IMG/VR virus record: IMGVR_UViG_3300011126_000115
Location: 1 to 27,672 of that record
Strand: one strand, 5' to 3'
DNA length: 27,672 bases
DNA from: a virus
Shown here: positions 4,033-25,930 of the stretch, piece after piece
Numbering within the stretch: the stretch's first letter is position 1
Layout of the letters: each line of letters opens with the position of its first letter
Translations under genes and position numbers: made by a program
Notes under the pieces: model-generated
The model's database searches: none
What the model was told of the DNA's origin: nothing
The model's input: only the letters and a program-made list of their open reading frames with translations

Positions 4033-4038
4033 GTCTAT

Positions 4039-4067
4039 ATCCTGCTACCTAACGAGTCCCCGCGCAA
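4039..4067 (-). promoter_or_regulatory. Weak promoter candidate upstream of the early-type operon
   Basis: TTGCGC (4067-4062), 17 bases, then CAGGAT (4044-4039) on the minus strand. The boxes are poor matches. I list it because the GGATATAG that follows is shared with the candidate at 2593, and because some promoter is expected between the terminators and this gene. Its -35 overlaps a G/C hairpin loop (CCCC at 4058-4061 with GGGG at 4068-4071). Confidence 0.25.
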
Positions 4068-4089
4068 GGGGGGTTGTTTAGTTTAGGGC

Positions 4090-4122
4090 AAAAAAAATCC
4101 CAAGTGACCGAAATCACTTAGG
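4090..4122 (-). terminator. Intrinsic terminator ending the late operon
   Basis: In minus-strand RNA the sequence is CCUAAGUGA UUUCGG UCACUUGGG, a 9-bp stem with one G-U pair and a 6-base loop, followed by A and eight U residues (complement of 4090-4097). This is a classic rho-independent terminator for minus-strand transcription. It lies beyond the last lysis-block gene and before the early-type genes. Confidence 0.85.
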
Positions 4123-4163
4123 AAAAAAATGGTCGGGAGGAGCGACGTCGAGCCGCTCCTCCC
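4123..4163 (-). terminator. Second terminator hairpin in tandem
   Basis: A perfect 10-bp stem, GGGAGGAGCG with CGCTCCTCCC (4135-4144 and 4154-4163) around a 9-base loop, is followed on the minus strand by GACC and then AUUUUUUU. With the hairpin at 4090 it makes a tandem terminator. A third, shorter stem, CCGACG with CGTCGG (4169-4174 and 4180-4185), lies just upstream. The whole gap 4091-4215 holds no gene. Confidence 0.75.
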
Positions 4164-4215
4164 TCCCTCCGACGTCAAGCGTCGGGTGCCGATAGCCCTC
4201 CGAGGGGAGAGCGAA

Positions 4216-15542: not shown

Positions 15543-15763
15543 TTACTTCTTTCGGTTCTGCTCTTCTTCGAGAGCTTCAAAATAGTCGAGGATGTCGTGA
15601 GCGTCGGCTGCGTCGTCGATGCTCCACTCGTCGAGGATGCCGACGAGGTGTCGTTGATGTGCTCGGAGACCGCGAGGCGCCAAACAAACCAGTTGACGTC
15701 GGGTGCTTCTACTCTGCTTCGTTCGCTCCGACTAGCTCGTCGAGGCGAAGGTCGGCTAAAAAA
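15543..15763 (-). CDS. -1 frameshift extension of tail assembly chaperone (frame-disrupted)
   Basis: After a -1 slip the chaperone frame continues as FFSRPSPRRASRSERSRVEA and then the clearly protein-like DVNWFVWRLAVSEH. Past about 15655 that frame becomes Ser/Thr-rich text that runs to 15467 inside the tape measure gene. Two bases on, the natural sequence resumes as RHLVGILDEWSIDDAADAHD and ILDYFEALEEEQNRKK, ending at TAA 15545-15543, just before the tape measure start. No ATG, GTG or TTG exists in the -1 frame here, so expression must come through frameshifting. It resembles small W..R......L.EWS..D..DA...LD proteins (DUF6889 from memory) often placed here. Deleting two bases, or adding one, near 15650-15662 restores it. 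Confidence 0.6.
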
Positions 15764-16101
15764 TCGGAGAAGTTCCACATGATGCACTTGCCGAGGAGAT
15801 GTAGCATCGAACCGAGGTGCCCTGCGAAGTGTTGTTCTACGAGTGCCTTCCCCATTGGGACCCAGTTGCCCGACTCGTTCAAGCGGAGACAATGCTCGCC
15901 GAACATACGGTCGCGGAAGAAGTTGATGTCTTCAACGCGGAGCCGCGAGGGGAGGGTCGCGAGGATGTTCTCGGAGATGCCCTCGGCGGAGCCGAGGAGG
16001 GAGAGGAGCTTGACGAGGACCTCTTGCGATTTCGCGAGGGGGAGTTGCTTGATGCAGAAGGTGTCGTCGCCGAGTTCGAGTTCGAGTTCTTTTAGTGCCA
16101 T
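15709..16101 (-). CDS. Tail assembly chaperone, 130 aa
   Basis: This protein of the late tail cluster is expected to coat the tape measure before tube assembly, as lambda gpG does. It starts MALKELELELGDDTFCIKQL and has helical segments (AKSQEVLVKLLSLLGSAEGI, LVEQHFAGHLGSMLHLLGK). It sits between tube and tape measure, the standard place for chaperones. It carries a slippery heptamer at 15757-15763 and so would be made in two forms: the 130-residue form and a minor -1 form of roughly 185 residues. The ribosome site AGGAACCAC lies just before the ATG. The family is assigned from position and the frameshift site more than from sequence. Confidence 0.8.
   Translation of the reverse strand: MALKELELELGDDTFCIKQLPLAKSQEVLVKLLSLLGSAEGISENILATLPSRLRVEDINFFRDRMFGEHCLRLNESGNWVPMGKALVEQHFAGHLGSMLHLLGKCIMWNFSDFLADLRLDELVGANEAE
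15757..15763 (-). promoter_or_regulatory. -1 programmed ribosomal frameshift site (TTTTTTA)
   Basis: The coding strand reads GA T TTT TTA GCC in the chaperone frame, so codons TTT and TTA are exactly in the XXY YYZ position. This is the canonical -1 slippery heptamer. Xu, Hendrix and Duda described conserved -1 shifts of this kind in tail assembly chaperones of double-stranded DNA phages. The -1 frame stays open past the chaperone stop. Confidence 0.82.
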
Positions 16102-16125
16102 GTGGTTCCTTGTATGTCATCCGCT

Positions 16126-16257
16126 ACATGTCGCTCTTCGAGACGCTGTAGGTAGCTTCCGACATGTCGCTCTTCGAGATGGTGTAGGTAGCTTCCGACA
16201 TGTCTCGCTTCGAGACGGGGTAGGTAGCTTCCGACATGTCGCTCTTCGAGACGATGT
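16126..16257. repeat. 36-bp tandem direct repeats, about 3.7 copies
   Basis: Units start at 16126, 16162, 16198 and 16234 with consensus ACATGTCGCTCTTCGAGACG then NTGTAGGTAGCTTCCG. The last unit breaks off after about 24 bases. Copies differ at few positions (for example CTCTTC versus TCGCTT in unit 3). Units 2 and 4 contain the perfect 10-bp palindrome CGACATGTCG across their left edge. There are no variable spacers, so it is not CRISPR. The repeats lie in the non-coding gap between the tube and chaperone genes and look like a multi-site protein-binding array. Confidence 0.85.
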
Positions 16258-16280
16258 GGGGTGTAGTGTGTGGAGTGCGC

Positions 16281-16389
16281 CACCTACATCCGAAGCGGGA
16301 ACATTACACGAAAACACAACTTCTGCGATTTCATGTAATATTCCGACTTCGCGTTTCGGCGGGGGGTCGGGTGTGTGCCCTTGTAGGTG
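16281..16389 (-). promoter_or_regulatory. Nested inverted-repeat RNA/DNA element after the tube gene
   Basis: A 20-bp inverted repeat (16291-16310 with 16332-16351) surrounds a 21-base AT-rich loop. In minus-strand RNA 19 of 20 positions pair, three as G-U, while on the plus strand the same three would be C-A mismatches. An outer 8-bp pair, TGTAGGTG (16382-16389) with CACCTACA (16281-16288), encloses it and begins right after the tube stop codon. No U tract follows, so it is not an ordinary terminator. Function unknown. Confidence 0.7.
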
Positions 16390-16821
16390 TTACAGGTTGC
16401 CGCCCGTGAACTCGATGAGCTTGTCGACCTGCAAAGTCCACGTCCGCTCGTTGGCTTCGCGTCCGTAGGTCACGTCGGGGGCCTTCATAATCCAAGCGTT
16501 GCCCGCCGTGTAGAGGGAGGTGCCATTCAAGTCGGTCACGAGAATCGCGCCCACGCCTGCGCCGCCCGGACTATTCAAGTCTGCGACGTGAATCGCGGAG
16601 AAGAGGTCGTTCGTGGGCGAGGTGCTCATGAGGATGATTTCCACGGTAGCCCTGCGGTCGTTGGTCTTGCTACGCGAGACCTCGCCGTCGGTGCCGACGA
16701 CCGACGTGAAGGCGTCGGTCTCGTGGGAGATGGTGAGGAAGTCGCCGTCGGCGAAGCCCTGCGCGGGGACGCCTGCAAAGGCGACCTGCACTTGGTTGCT
16801 ATCATAAATGCGAGTAGTCAT
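16390..16821 (-). CDS. Tail tube protein, DUF3277-like, 143 aa
   Basis: The inner tube through which DNA passes. The sequence is close to the DUF3277 phage structural family: RIYDSNQVQVAFAGVPAQGF, then ADGDFLTISHETDAFTSVVG, TDGEVSRSKTNDRRATVEI, LMSTSPTNDLFSAIHVADL and a C-terminal REANERTWTLQVDKLIEF ending GGNL. Family members are about 140 to 150 residues, so this is full length. A GTAAGGTAAATCACA leader gives a ribosome site overlapping the sheath stop region. It follows the sheath gene by 11 bases, the usual sheath-tube pair. Confidence 0.9.
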   Translation of the reverse strand: MTTRIYDSNQVQVAFAGVPAQGFADGDFLTISHETDAFTSVVGTDGEVSRSKTNDRRATVEIILMSTSPTNDLFSAIHVADLNSPGGAGVGAILVTDLNGTSLYTAGNAWIMKAPDVTYGREANERTWTLQVDKLIEFTGGNL

Positions 16822-16832
16822 TGTGATTTACC

Positions 16833-18524
16833 TTACAGGTTGAGTTCGCCCTCGATGGCGACCTTGTGGATGGCGCCCGCGAGAACTGCGCGGAAGGTTA
16901 CATCGTTGAGGGTTCGGGATGATTTGTCCGCCGCCGAGACGTCGGTGGCGAGGGGGACGGTGCAAGTGGGCTCGGGGTCCGCTGCGATGAAGTCGCGCGC
17001 GATGCCCTGATTCAACTGCGCGAGAATCTCGCCACGCACTGCCTGGATCCCAGCGTCAGTGTAGGGGAGTTTGTCGTTGTTGAAGAGCAAAGTGTAGACG
17101 CGCTCTTGAATCCGCGCCGCGAGCCAGTCGGCCCCACGCATCACGTCAATGTATTCTCCCCCACAAGCTACGCCGTAGCGCGTTATGTTTACGCCTGCGA
17201 GTGTCGAGAGGAAGTTGACGTTCTTCGCTTCGAGGTTCGTCCGCTCGGTGGCGGTGAGAATCTGCGAAGTGACGGATGAGAGTTGCTTGTATGCCCAAGT
17301 TATGCTACCTGCATCCTCGGGGAGTGCTCGCCCTGCCATCGCTGCGCCGACCTTCTCGGTCCCGTCGCGGTGGAAGAAGAGCATGGTCCGGTCGTAGTTC
17401 GCCGCCTTCAAGTCGTAGGCGATGGAGGTCACGTCGGAAGCCGAGGAGCCCGATGCGACGAGGGAGTCTGCACTCTGCACGAGTACAATCTTCTTCGCTG
17501 CTTCGGTCCATGCCGCCGCCGCGGTGATTTCGCCCGCGCCCGTCGAGTCGACGGGGAGGAGACAATACCAGTCCGGGTCGTAGAGTTCGATGGCCGCCAT
17601 GTCGGTCGCGAGTCCGGGGTCGGCGGTGGTCTCTAGGTGAGTCCAGCCTTCGCCCGTCAACGTGATGCCGAAGTAGTCGCCCGCGGTGGTCGCGGTGATG
17701 GTGGCGACGGTGCCGCCGTCAACCAAGCCGATGAGCGAGGTGCCGTTCTGCTCTACGTCTGCGTCGAGCCATGCGATGAGGTCGCCGACTGCGTCGGCTT
17801 CGGTCACGGCTGCGGCGAAGATGTTAGTGCCTGCGGTGAAGGTCTCGGTCGTCGCGACTGCCGCGTCGGTGAAGCCCGCCTTGTGACGGAGTAGCATCGA
17901 AGTAGCCGATGCCTTGACCGCCTCGACGGTTCCGTGAATGGCTTGCCCTGCGAAGTACTCGACGCCATCGGTGCCGGTGAGGTTGATGGCCGCGACGATG
18001 AAGTCGATGCTCTCCTCGGCGGTCGAGCCGATGGTGATGTCGTTCAAAGCTGCGGGTGCCGCCTCGAAGGTGTAGACGGTCGCGCCGATTGTCATCGTGT
18101 CCGATGCCGTCGGGGTCGTGTCGAGGGTGAGGATGCCCGAGAAGCCTGCGACGAGGTCGAAGGTCTCGCCCGACGTTGCGCCGGGTCCGGTGATTTCGAG
18201 GGAGGTGGTCTCGCCTGCGATGATTGCGTCGGAGCCGGGGGTGAGGGTTACGACCTGCGTCGCGGGGAGTGCCTTGCGTCCGACCTTGAAGGACGGGGGG
18301 CTAGGATTCTGCGCGAGAAGGTCCGACGCGGCGACGTAGACCGGGGAGGTCGTGGCGAAGCCGTCATCGGTCAAGCCGGTGAGGGTGCTGTAGGTTCGAA
18401 CCCGCTCGGGGAAGATGCTCGTCGAGAAGTAGGCGAGCAGTAGCGGTGTTCCGAAACCCGCCTGAGTCGGCGTCGTCGTGTTCCGGTCAATGTTGACCGT
18501 GATGATTTGATTCAAATCTGACAT
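16833..18524 (-). CDS. Contractile tail sheath protein, DUF3383-like, 563 aa
   Basis: This gene shows that the phage has a contractile tail. The first part (MSDLNQIITVNIDRNTTTPT, QAGFGTPLLLAYFSTSIFPE, RVRTYSTL) and the C-terminal part (LFNNDKLPYTDAGIQAVRGE, ILAQLNQGIARDFIA) match DUF3383 sheath proteins. Between them, at about residues 80 to 260, lies a Thr/Ala/Gly-rich beta insertion, the protruding domain found in larger sheaths. The C-terminal FRAVLAGAIHKVAIEGELNL strand is the usual handshake arm. AAGGAATCCTAACC is the ribosome site. The 65-base gap upstream holds a 12-bp palindrome. Confidence 0.9.
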   Translation of the reverse strand: MSDLNQIITVNIDRNTTTPTQAGFGTPLLLAYFSTSIFPERVRTYSTLTGLTDDGFATTSPVYVAASDLLAQNPSPPSFKVGRKALPATQVVTLTPGSDAIIAGETTSLEITGPGATSGETFDLVAGFSGILTLDTTPTASDTMTIGATVYTFEAAPAALNDITIGSTAEESIDFIVAAINLTGTDGVEYFAGQAIHGTVEAVKASATSMLLRHKAGFTDAAVATTETFTAGTNIFAAAVTEADAVGDLIAWLDADVEQNGTSLIGLVDGGTVATITATTAGDYFGITLTGEGWTHLETTADPGLATDMAAIELYDPDWYCLLPVDSTGAGEITAAAAWTEAAKKIVLVQSADSLVASGSSASDVTSIAYDLKAANYDRTMLFFHRDGTEKVGAAMAGRALPEDAGSITWAYKQLSSVTSQILTATERTNLEAKNVNFLSTLAGVNITRYGVACGGEYIDVMRGADWLAARIQERVYTLLFNNDKLPYTDAGIQAVRGEILAQLNQGIARDFIAADPEPTCTVPLATDVSAADKSSRTLNDVTFRAVLAGAIHKVAIEGELNL

Positions 18525-25776: not shown

Positions 25777-25858
25777 GAGGGAGAACTCCTAAAGTTGGGG
25801 GTGTGTTGGTTGTGGGGGTTGGACCTTTTCAGGGTCGCCCGGAGAACCGAGCAAGCCT

Positions 25859-25915
25859 AAAAAAGTGAAGAACGACGCGACGGAAGGACACACAAAAACC
25901 ATCGCGCCGCTCTTC
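25859..25915 (-). terminator. Strong intrinsic terminator after the major capsid gene
   Basis: In minus-strand RNA the sequence has a 17-bp stem, GAAGAGCGGCGCGAUGG with CCGUCGCGUCGUUCUUC, all 17 positions paired (three G-U), around a 15-base loop UUUUUGUGUGUCCUU. It is followed by AC and six U residues (complement of 25859-25864). It starts 15 bases past the capsid stop. It would lower transcription of downstream neck and tail genes relative to capsid. The gap 25777-25930 otherwise holds no gene. Confidence 0.9.
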
Positions 25916-25930
25916 AACTAGGAGAAGATG

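Follow-up and report, generated by a model that had tools for sequence, protein, structure and literature searches.

Long stems between phage genes are well known from phage T7, in which RNase III processing hairpins could equip the message on their upstream side with a stem-loop that protects it. In general, substrates of RNase III-type enzymes offer about 20 or more near-continuous base pairs. Stem-loops may also lie inside operons; for instance, the mid-operon hairpin of galE in E. coli has been tested as a block to exonucleases (PMC11925234). Other hairpins are found behind phage tail genes. In mycobacteriophage Corndog, the major tail gene is followed by a terminator (PMC4351075), while Hafnia phage Meifeng and Pantoea phage LIET2, whose tube proteins belong to the same family as the one considered here, carry terminator-like hairpins directly 3′ of the tube gene. 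A message boundary after the tube gene is thus a recurring theme, because hairpins or terminators are present there in Meifeng, LIET2 and Corndog. Here, a hairpin at the corresponding place in an uncultured phage is compared with these systems.

The window, that is, the whole stretch of DNA that was analysed, covers bases 1 to 27,672 of an IMG/VR phage record of 39,615 bases. The phage has a contractile tail, and its sheath, tube and probable chaperone genes are all on the minus strand:
16833 to 18524, minus strand: tail sheath gene, 11 bp upstream of the tube gene
16390 to 16821, minus strand: tail tube gene, before the hairpin (PHROG 280, virion structural protein)
15709 to 16101, minus strand: probable tail assembly chaperone gene, after the gap (PHROG 1613, E 7e-5)

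The related tube gene of LIET2 is annotated as a putative tail tube protein. The sheath and tube genes are presumably on the same message, and the gap between the tube and chaperone genes has 288 nt, compared with 10-42 nt to the next gene in other phages of the same tube family. Since all genes that a simple gene caller predicts in the record are on the minus strand, the minus-strand RNA is taken to be the message. In this gap, the following elements of structure are found:
16291 to 16351, minus strand: RNA hairpin with 6 + 16 + 4 pairs, two mismatches (C-C and U-U) and the 5-nt apical loop GAAGU
16298 to 16344, minus strand: uninterrupted 16-pair core helix, with two G-U pairs, and its loop
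16310 to 16327, minus strand: apical mini-hairpin CGCA/UGUG followed by UUUU, inside the 3′ arm
16281 to 16389, minus strand: possible closing stem of CACCUACA (16389-16382, the first bases past the tube stop) with UGUAGGUG (16288-16281)

On the minus-strand RNA, 16291-16351 forms 26 pairs, 22 of them Watson-Crick and four G-U, interrupted by the two mismatches; only 4 pairs of the core are G-C. The repeat was noticed by an earlier note through its 20-nt arms, GGAATATTACATGAAATCGC and GGAACATTACACGAAAACAC (the latter being the reverse complement of the other arm), and the coordinates and counts given there are exact. The arms differ at four positions, of which two T/C transitions and one G/A transition each become a G-U pair on the minus strand and the fourth is the U-U mismatch, so that 19 of 20 positions are paired. 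Beyond these arms, 6 extra pairs are formed outside the C-C mismatch and 1 inside. The earlier note also had the repeat start right after the tube gene without a U tract. It does lie 3′ of that gene, but 38 nt separate the stop codon from its start; and no U run follows the long stem, but there is one inside the 3′ arm, after the small apical hairpin. The closing stem is uncertain, as it is present in a 141-nt fold and lost when the whole 288-nt gap is folded.

When 16260-16400 is folded on both strands, the minus strand reaches -51.0 kcal/mol (z -5.1, with none of 200 shuffles as good) versus -47.4 kcal/mol on the plus strand (z -0.9, 31/200 shuffles). Equal stability of the plus strand, which would have spoken against an RNA element, is therefore not seen. 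For the hairpin alone (77 nt), the values are -33.6 kcal/mol on the coding strand (z -6.4, 0/1000 shuffles) and -20.3 kcal/mol on the opposite strand (z -4.3, 2/1000). The strand contrast is thus partial: the plus strand of the hairpin is clearly less stable, yet structured, because an inverted repeat in DNA always leaves some structure on both strands. A further argument comes from the direction of the wobbles. All four transitions in the hairpin favor the coding strand, which, taken alone, is a weak argument (two-sided p 0.125). Among the intergenic inverted repeats of a strand-neutral list, however, 13 wobbles favor the coding strand versus 1 for the other, whereas those within genes, from the same list, are split 5 to 4. 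The two-sided sign test for the intergenic set gives about 0.002, in a test that was devised post hoc, with the data already seen, and that treats the wobbles as independent.

The list was obtained by scanning the 39.6-kb record with a score that penalizes the wobbles of both strands equally. By this score, 16291-16351 is the top inverted repeat of the record, and the runner-up lies immediately 3′ of the gene for the major capsid protein. The same top score was reached in 2 of 40 shuffled genomes, so that rarity judged on length alone is modest (p about 0.05); the case beyond length is carried by placement, strand bias and conservation. A generic repeat finder did not pick up the repeat. Rfam gave no match for the hairpin region, the whole window, the relative described below or the rest of the record, except for one tRNA. 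This is a tRNA-Ala with anticodon TGC, outside the window on the minus strand (L012 3637-3709, record about 30536-30608). In addition, one hairpin arm, used as an exact DNA query, was not found in IMG/VR, and genome contigs, phage DNA and plasmid DNA gave no match.

Relatives were sought through the tube, sheath, capsid and chaperone proteins and through repeat patterns, and only the L002/L003 lineage is close. L002 and L003 share 99.3% identity with each other and are therefore treated as a single independent comparison. Candidates L013, L023 and L024 were rejected, their repeat-pattern matches being chance occurrences inside genes. In the flanking stretches, L002/L003 are about 84-88% identical to the window (blastn); both flanks align, but the alignment is interrupted precisely at the hairpin, from 16369 to 16294 of the window. 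At the break, the relatives have about 210 extra nt. In L002, this tube-chaperone gap (1198-1440) has no tRNA or Rfam match and includes a GATTCGAAC stretch resembling the T-loop region of a tRNA.

The relative nevertheless has a hairpin in the same place, ahead of a shared GATGTAGGTGG. It is less regular, with a longest uninterrupted helix of 9 pairs, and L002 folds with z -2.6 on the coding strand versus -1.0 on the other. In a MAFFT alignment, nine pairs of the window (16334-16342 with 16300-16308) can be matched to it, the rest of the stem being mostly unalignable. These nine pairs contain three compensatory double changes, two from A-U to U-A and one from A-U to G-C, and sliding the partners destroys the pairing. 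The earlier note had named a lack of compensatory changes in homologues as a reason to abandon the idea of a selected RNA structure, and such changes do occur, in one lineage. Their statistical weight is limited, as shuffling of the two alignment rows reached the covariation count in 64 of 500 cases; they come from a single independent lineage, and an alignment in so diverged a stretch may lean toward pairing.

These observations bear on whether the repeat acts as DNA, for instance as an operator or recombination site, with RNA pairing as a by-product. In favor of this, the hairpin adjoins an array of palindromes, its outer bases, CACCTACA/TGTAGGTG, resemble the units of that array, and four wobbles out of four could alone be due to chance. 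Nevertheless, the pairing is kept although the sequence is poorly conserved; the arms differ between the window and L002/L003, when an operator would require their conservation, and the coding-strand bias extends across the intergenic hairpins. The array itself shows the opposite pattern. A DNA-level role for the hairpin is hence considered highly improbable. The arrays are:
16123 to 16260, minus strand: four 30-bp imperfect palindromes with a 36-bp period, located after the hairpin and before the chaperone start
27849 to 28058 of the record (L012 950-1159), outside the window: second array with six more units, in the gap that separates the head protease gene from the next one

Both arrays end just before a gene start. 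In 14 array units, no variation is seen in the CGAAG loop or in the ACATGT run, while the pair positions are often broken: 134 of 168 are paired, 30 are mismatches, 4 are wobbles of the other strand and none is a wobble of the coding strand. The gaps that hold each array, when folded whole, are more stable on the non-coding strand. This pattern, contrary to that of the hairpin, suggests a DNA-level site, and the view of the 36-bp repeats as further RNA hairpins of this type was rejected, since their pairing is better on the non-coding strand and coding-strand wobbles are lacking. With its sequence conserved and its pairing not, the array is probably a separate DNA-level element and possibly the binding site of a phage regulator. 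Among the collections searched, the 36-bp repeats are found only in this phage group.

Other elements were observed elsewhere in the record. Past the second array, an open frame that begins with ATGTCAGAAACACCG starts at record 27814 and is interrupted downstream of two N (around 27670-27680), which is probably an assembly flaw in a scaffold-like gene. In L012, the gaps at record 33400-33592 and 36757-36924 share CTTGCC, 17 nt and then GCATGAT or GCAAGGAT shortly ahead of gene starts; these start-proximal motifs are perhaps early promoters. Two near-identical 12-pair hairpins, GACCCCTCGGGC....GCTCGGGGGGTC, are located on the minus strand at record 32416-32443 and 32778-32805 (L012), both in one long stretch without called genes.

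The runner-up of the scan provides a second case of strong coding-strand structure behind a structural gene:
25823 to 25916, minus strand: two adjoining hairpins on the coding strand, in tandem behind the major capsid gene

Here, the coding strand has z -6.4 versus z -1.5 on the other strand, and 7 of 7 wobbles favor the coding strand. The first hairpin is followed by CUUUUUU, and the same run is the 5′ arm of the second hairpin. This run is one reason to consider that the hairpin behind the tube gene could be a transcription terminator or attenuator, in which the apical mini-hairpin and its U residues would stop part of the polymerases and the RNA made by read-through would fold into the long stem. 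The relative adds to this, as its apical mini-hairpin, CUGCA/UGCGG followed by UUUUUU (CTGCAAGTTCTGCGG-TTTTTT at the aligned place), scores as terminator-like on the coding strand, and so do the terminators of Corndog and of Meifeng, the latter an intrinsic one with GGCCGCC-TACG-GGCGGTTTTTTA. In the window, however, the apical stem has just 4 pairs, one of them G-U, followed by 4 U, and a terminator scan makes no call; the long stem has no U run after it, and CCGCUUCGG follows the core. At this place, the GC-rich stem with an immediate 7-8 nt U tract that defines an intrinsic terminator is absent. True terminators do occur elsewhere in the genome, such as the tandem canonical pair at window 4033-4215, with U7 and U8 runs and conserved in relative G002, and the hairpin is therefore of another type. 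In a variant of this explanation, termination would depend on a factor and occur downstream, but the C-rich, G-poor stretches past the stem are not exceptional on the C-rich coding strand. A strong Rho loading site, which would call for C-rich, G-poor, unstructured and untranslated RNA near the 3′ end, found no particular support, such stretches being common on the strand and that of the window not among the strongest. Overall, termination is a possible but doubtful account of the hairpin, and the apical stem with UUUU and the terminator-like TTTTTT of the relative might allow partial termination within it.

Alternatively, the stem may be cut by an RNase III-type enzyme, which would separate the tube message from the chaperone message. 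The 26 pairs with two single mismatches come close to the expected substrate length, and the post-capsid stem is of similar size; the 9-pair uninterrupted helix of the relative, by contrast, is short for such an enzyme. Processing of this kind is thus judged unlikely. Still less can be said for an independent small regulatory RNA, or for a 5′ leader that controls chaperone translation. In favor of such a role, the gap of 288 nt is long, and that of the relative is longer still. Nevertheless, a sigma-70 scan found no promoter-like site, there is no Rfam match, and about 190 nt, with the array between, separate the hairpin from the chaperone start, all of which makes this role very remote.

The preferred explanation, held with about even confidence, is that the hairpin ends the sheath-tube message and protects it by blocking 3′-5′ exonucleases. 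It forms a stable stem-loop in the transcribed RNA, a short way behind a coding sequence, and its pairing is conserved by compensatory change, in one lineage and to limited depth. Selection for RNA structure in the late transcript, as proposed in the earlier note, is supported by the three compensatory changes, by a strand bias that is restricted to intergenic repeats and by the second strong hairpin system 3′ of the capsid gene. Sequence cannot decide among the three functions suggested there, of which a 3′ stabilizer or a processing site would fit best. The chief competitors of the preferred explanation are RNase III-type processing and partial termination, which sequence does not tell apart. 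The hairpin is a real RNA-level feature; as phage signals go it is of an ordinary type, and this example is well placed.

From the structure, its strand preference, its position and the pairing kept in one related lineage, we infer the following course of events for a 3′-end hairpin. The sheath-tube part of the late message is presumably highly expressed, and the hairpin, located in an untranslated gap, would end that part. After transcription, the 26-pair stem would fold and stop 3′-to-5′ exonucleases. The 3′ end itself might arise where the RNA is cut, within the stem or past it, or where transcription terminates in the 200 nt of untranslated sequence that follow. Thus, a stable 3′ end would be kept behind the tube gene, and the chaperone part would be made or kept at a lower level. 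A more elaborate proposal, which we regard as improbable, is a boundary element with two states. In this case, the apical hairpin and its U run would terminate some transcripts, and refolding upon read-through would hide the U run within the long stem that protects the message. The same design would recur in the tandem behind the capsid gene, and control of the transcription unit that comes next would fall to the 36-bp DNA arrays next to the tube and head genes.

Our general understanding of phage expression is unchanged by these observations. They do place an RNA-level hairpin and probably DNA-level palindromes side by side in one gap of this phage, and they mark likely message boundaries after two groups of structural genes, those of the capsid and of the sheath and tube. 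In addition, the pooled direction of wobbles, compared with that of repeats inside genes, can help to separate RNA-level hairpins from DNA-level palindromes, even in an uncultured phage without expression data.

Of the systems named above, the galE hairpin is one close counterpart. Both are stem-loops shortly past a stop codon inside a polycistronic message, and both are expected to fix a stable 3′ end and to cause unequal expression of the flanking genes. The galE stem has 8 pairs and was tested by mutation, while the one described here has 26 pairs in a 288-nt gap and is predicted from sequence. With the T7 hairpins it shares a long intergenic stem that could protect the upstream message. 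The stem-loop of Corndog likewise separates the major tail gene from the tail assembly chaperone gene that comes after it, but it consists of a 12-bp stem followed by TTTCT, whereas the long stem here has no following U run (PMC4351075). Meifeng and LIET2 share the tube protein family and the position of the hairpin; their stems are short and GC-rich, with T- or TC-rich tails, whereas that of the window is long. Finally, the array resembles the 17-bp dyad repeats of Cluster O (PMC4351075), as lineage-specific palindromic repeats in phage intergenic regions, and the start-associated sequences of Cluster K (PMC3203893), as lineage-specific repeats that are proximal to gene starts in such regions. 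It differs from both in having a 30-bp unit with a 36-bp period, arranged in tandem and found at two places in the record.
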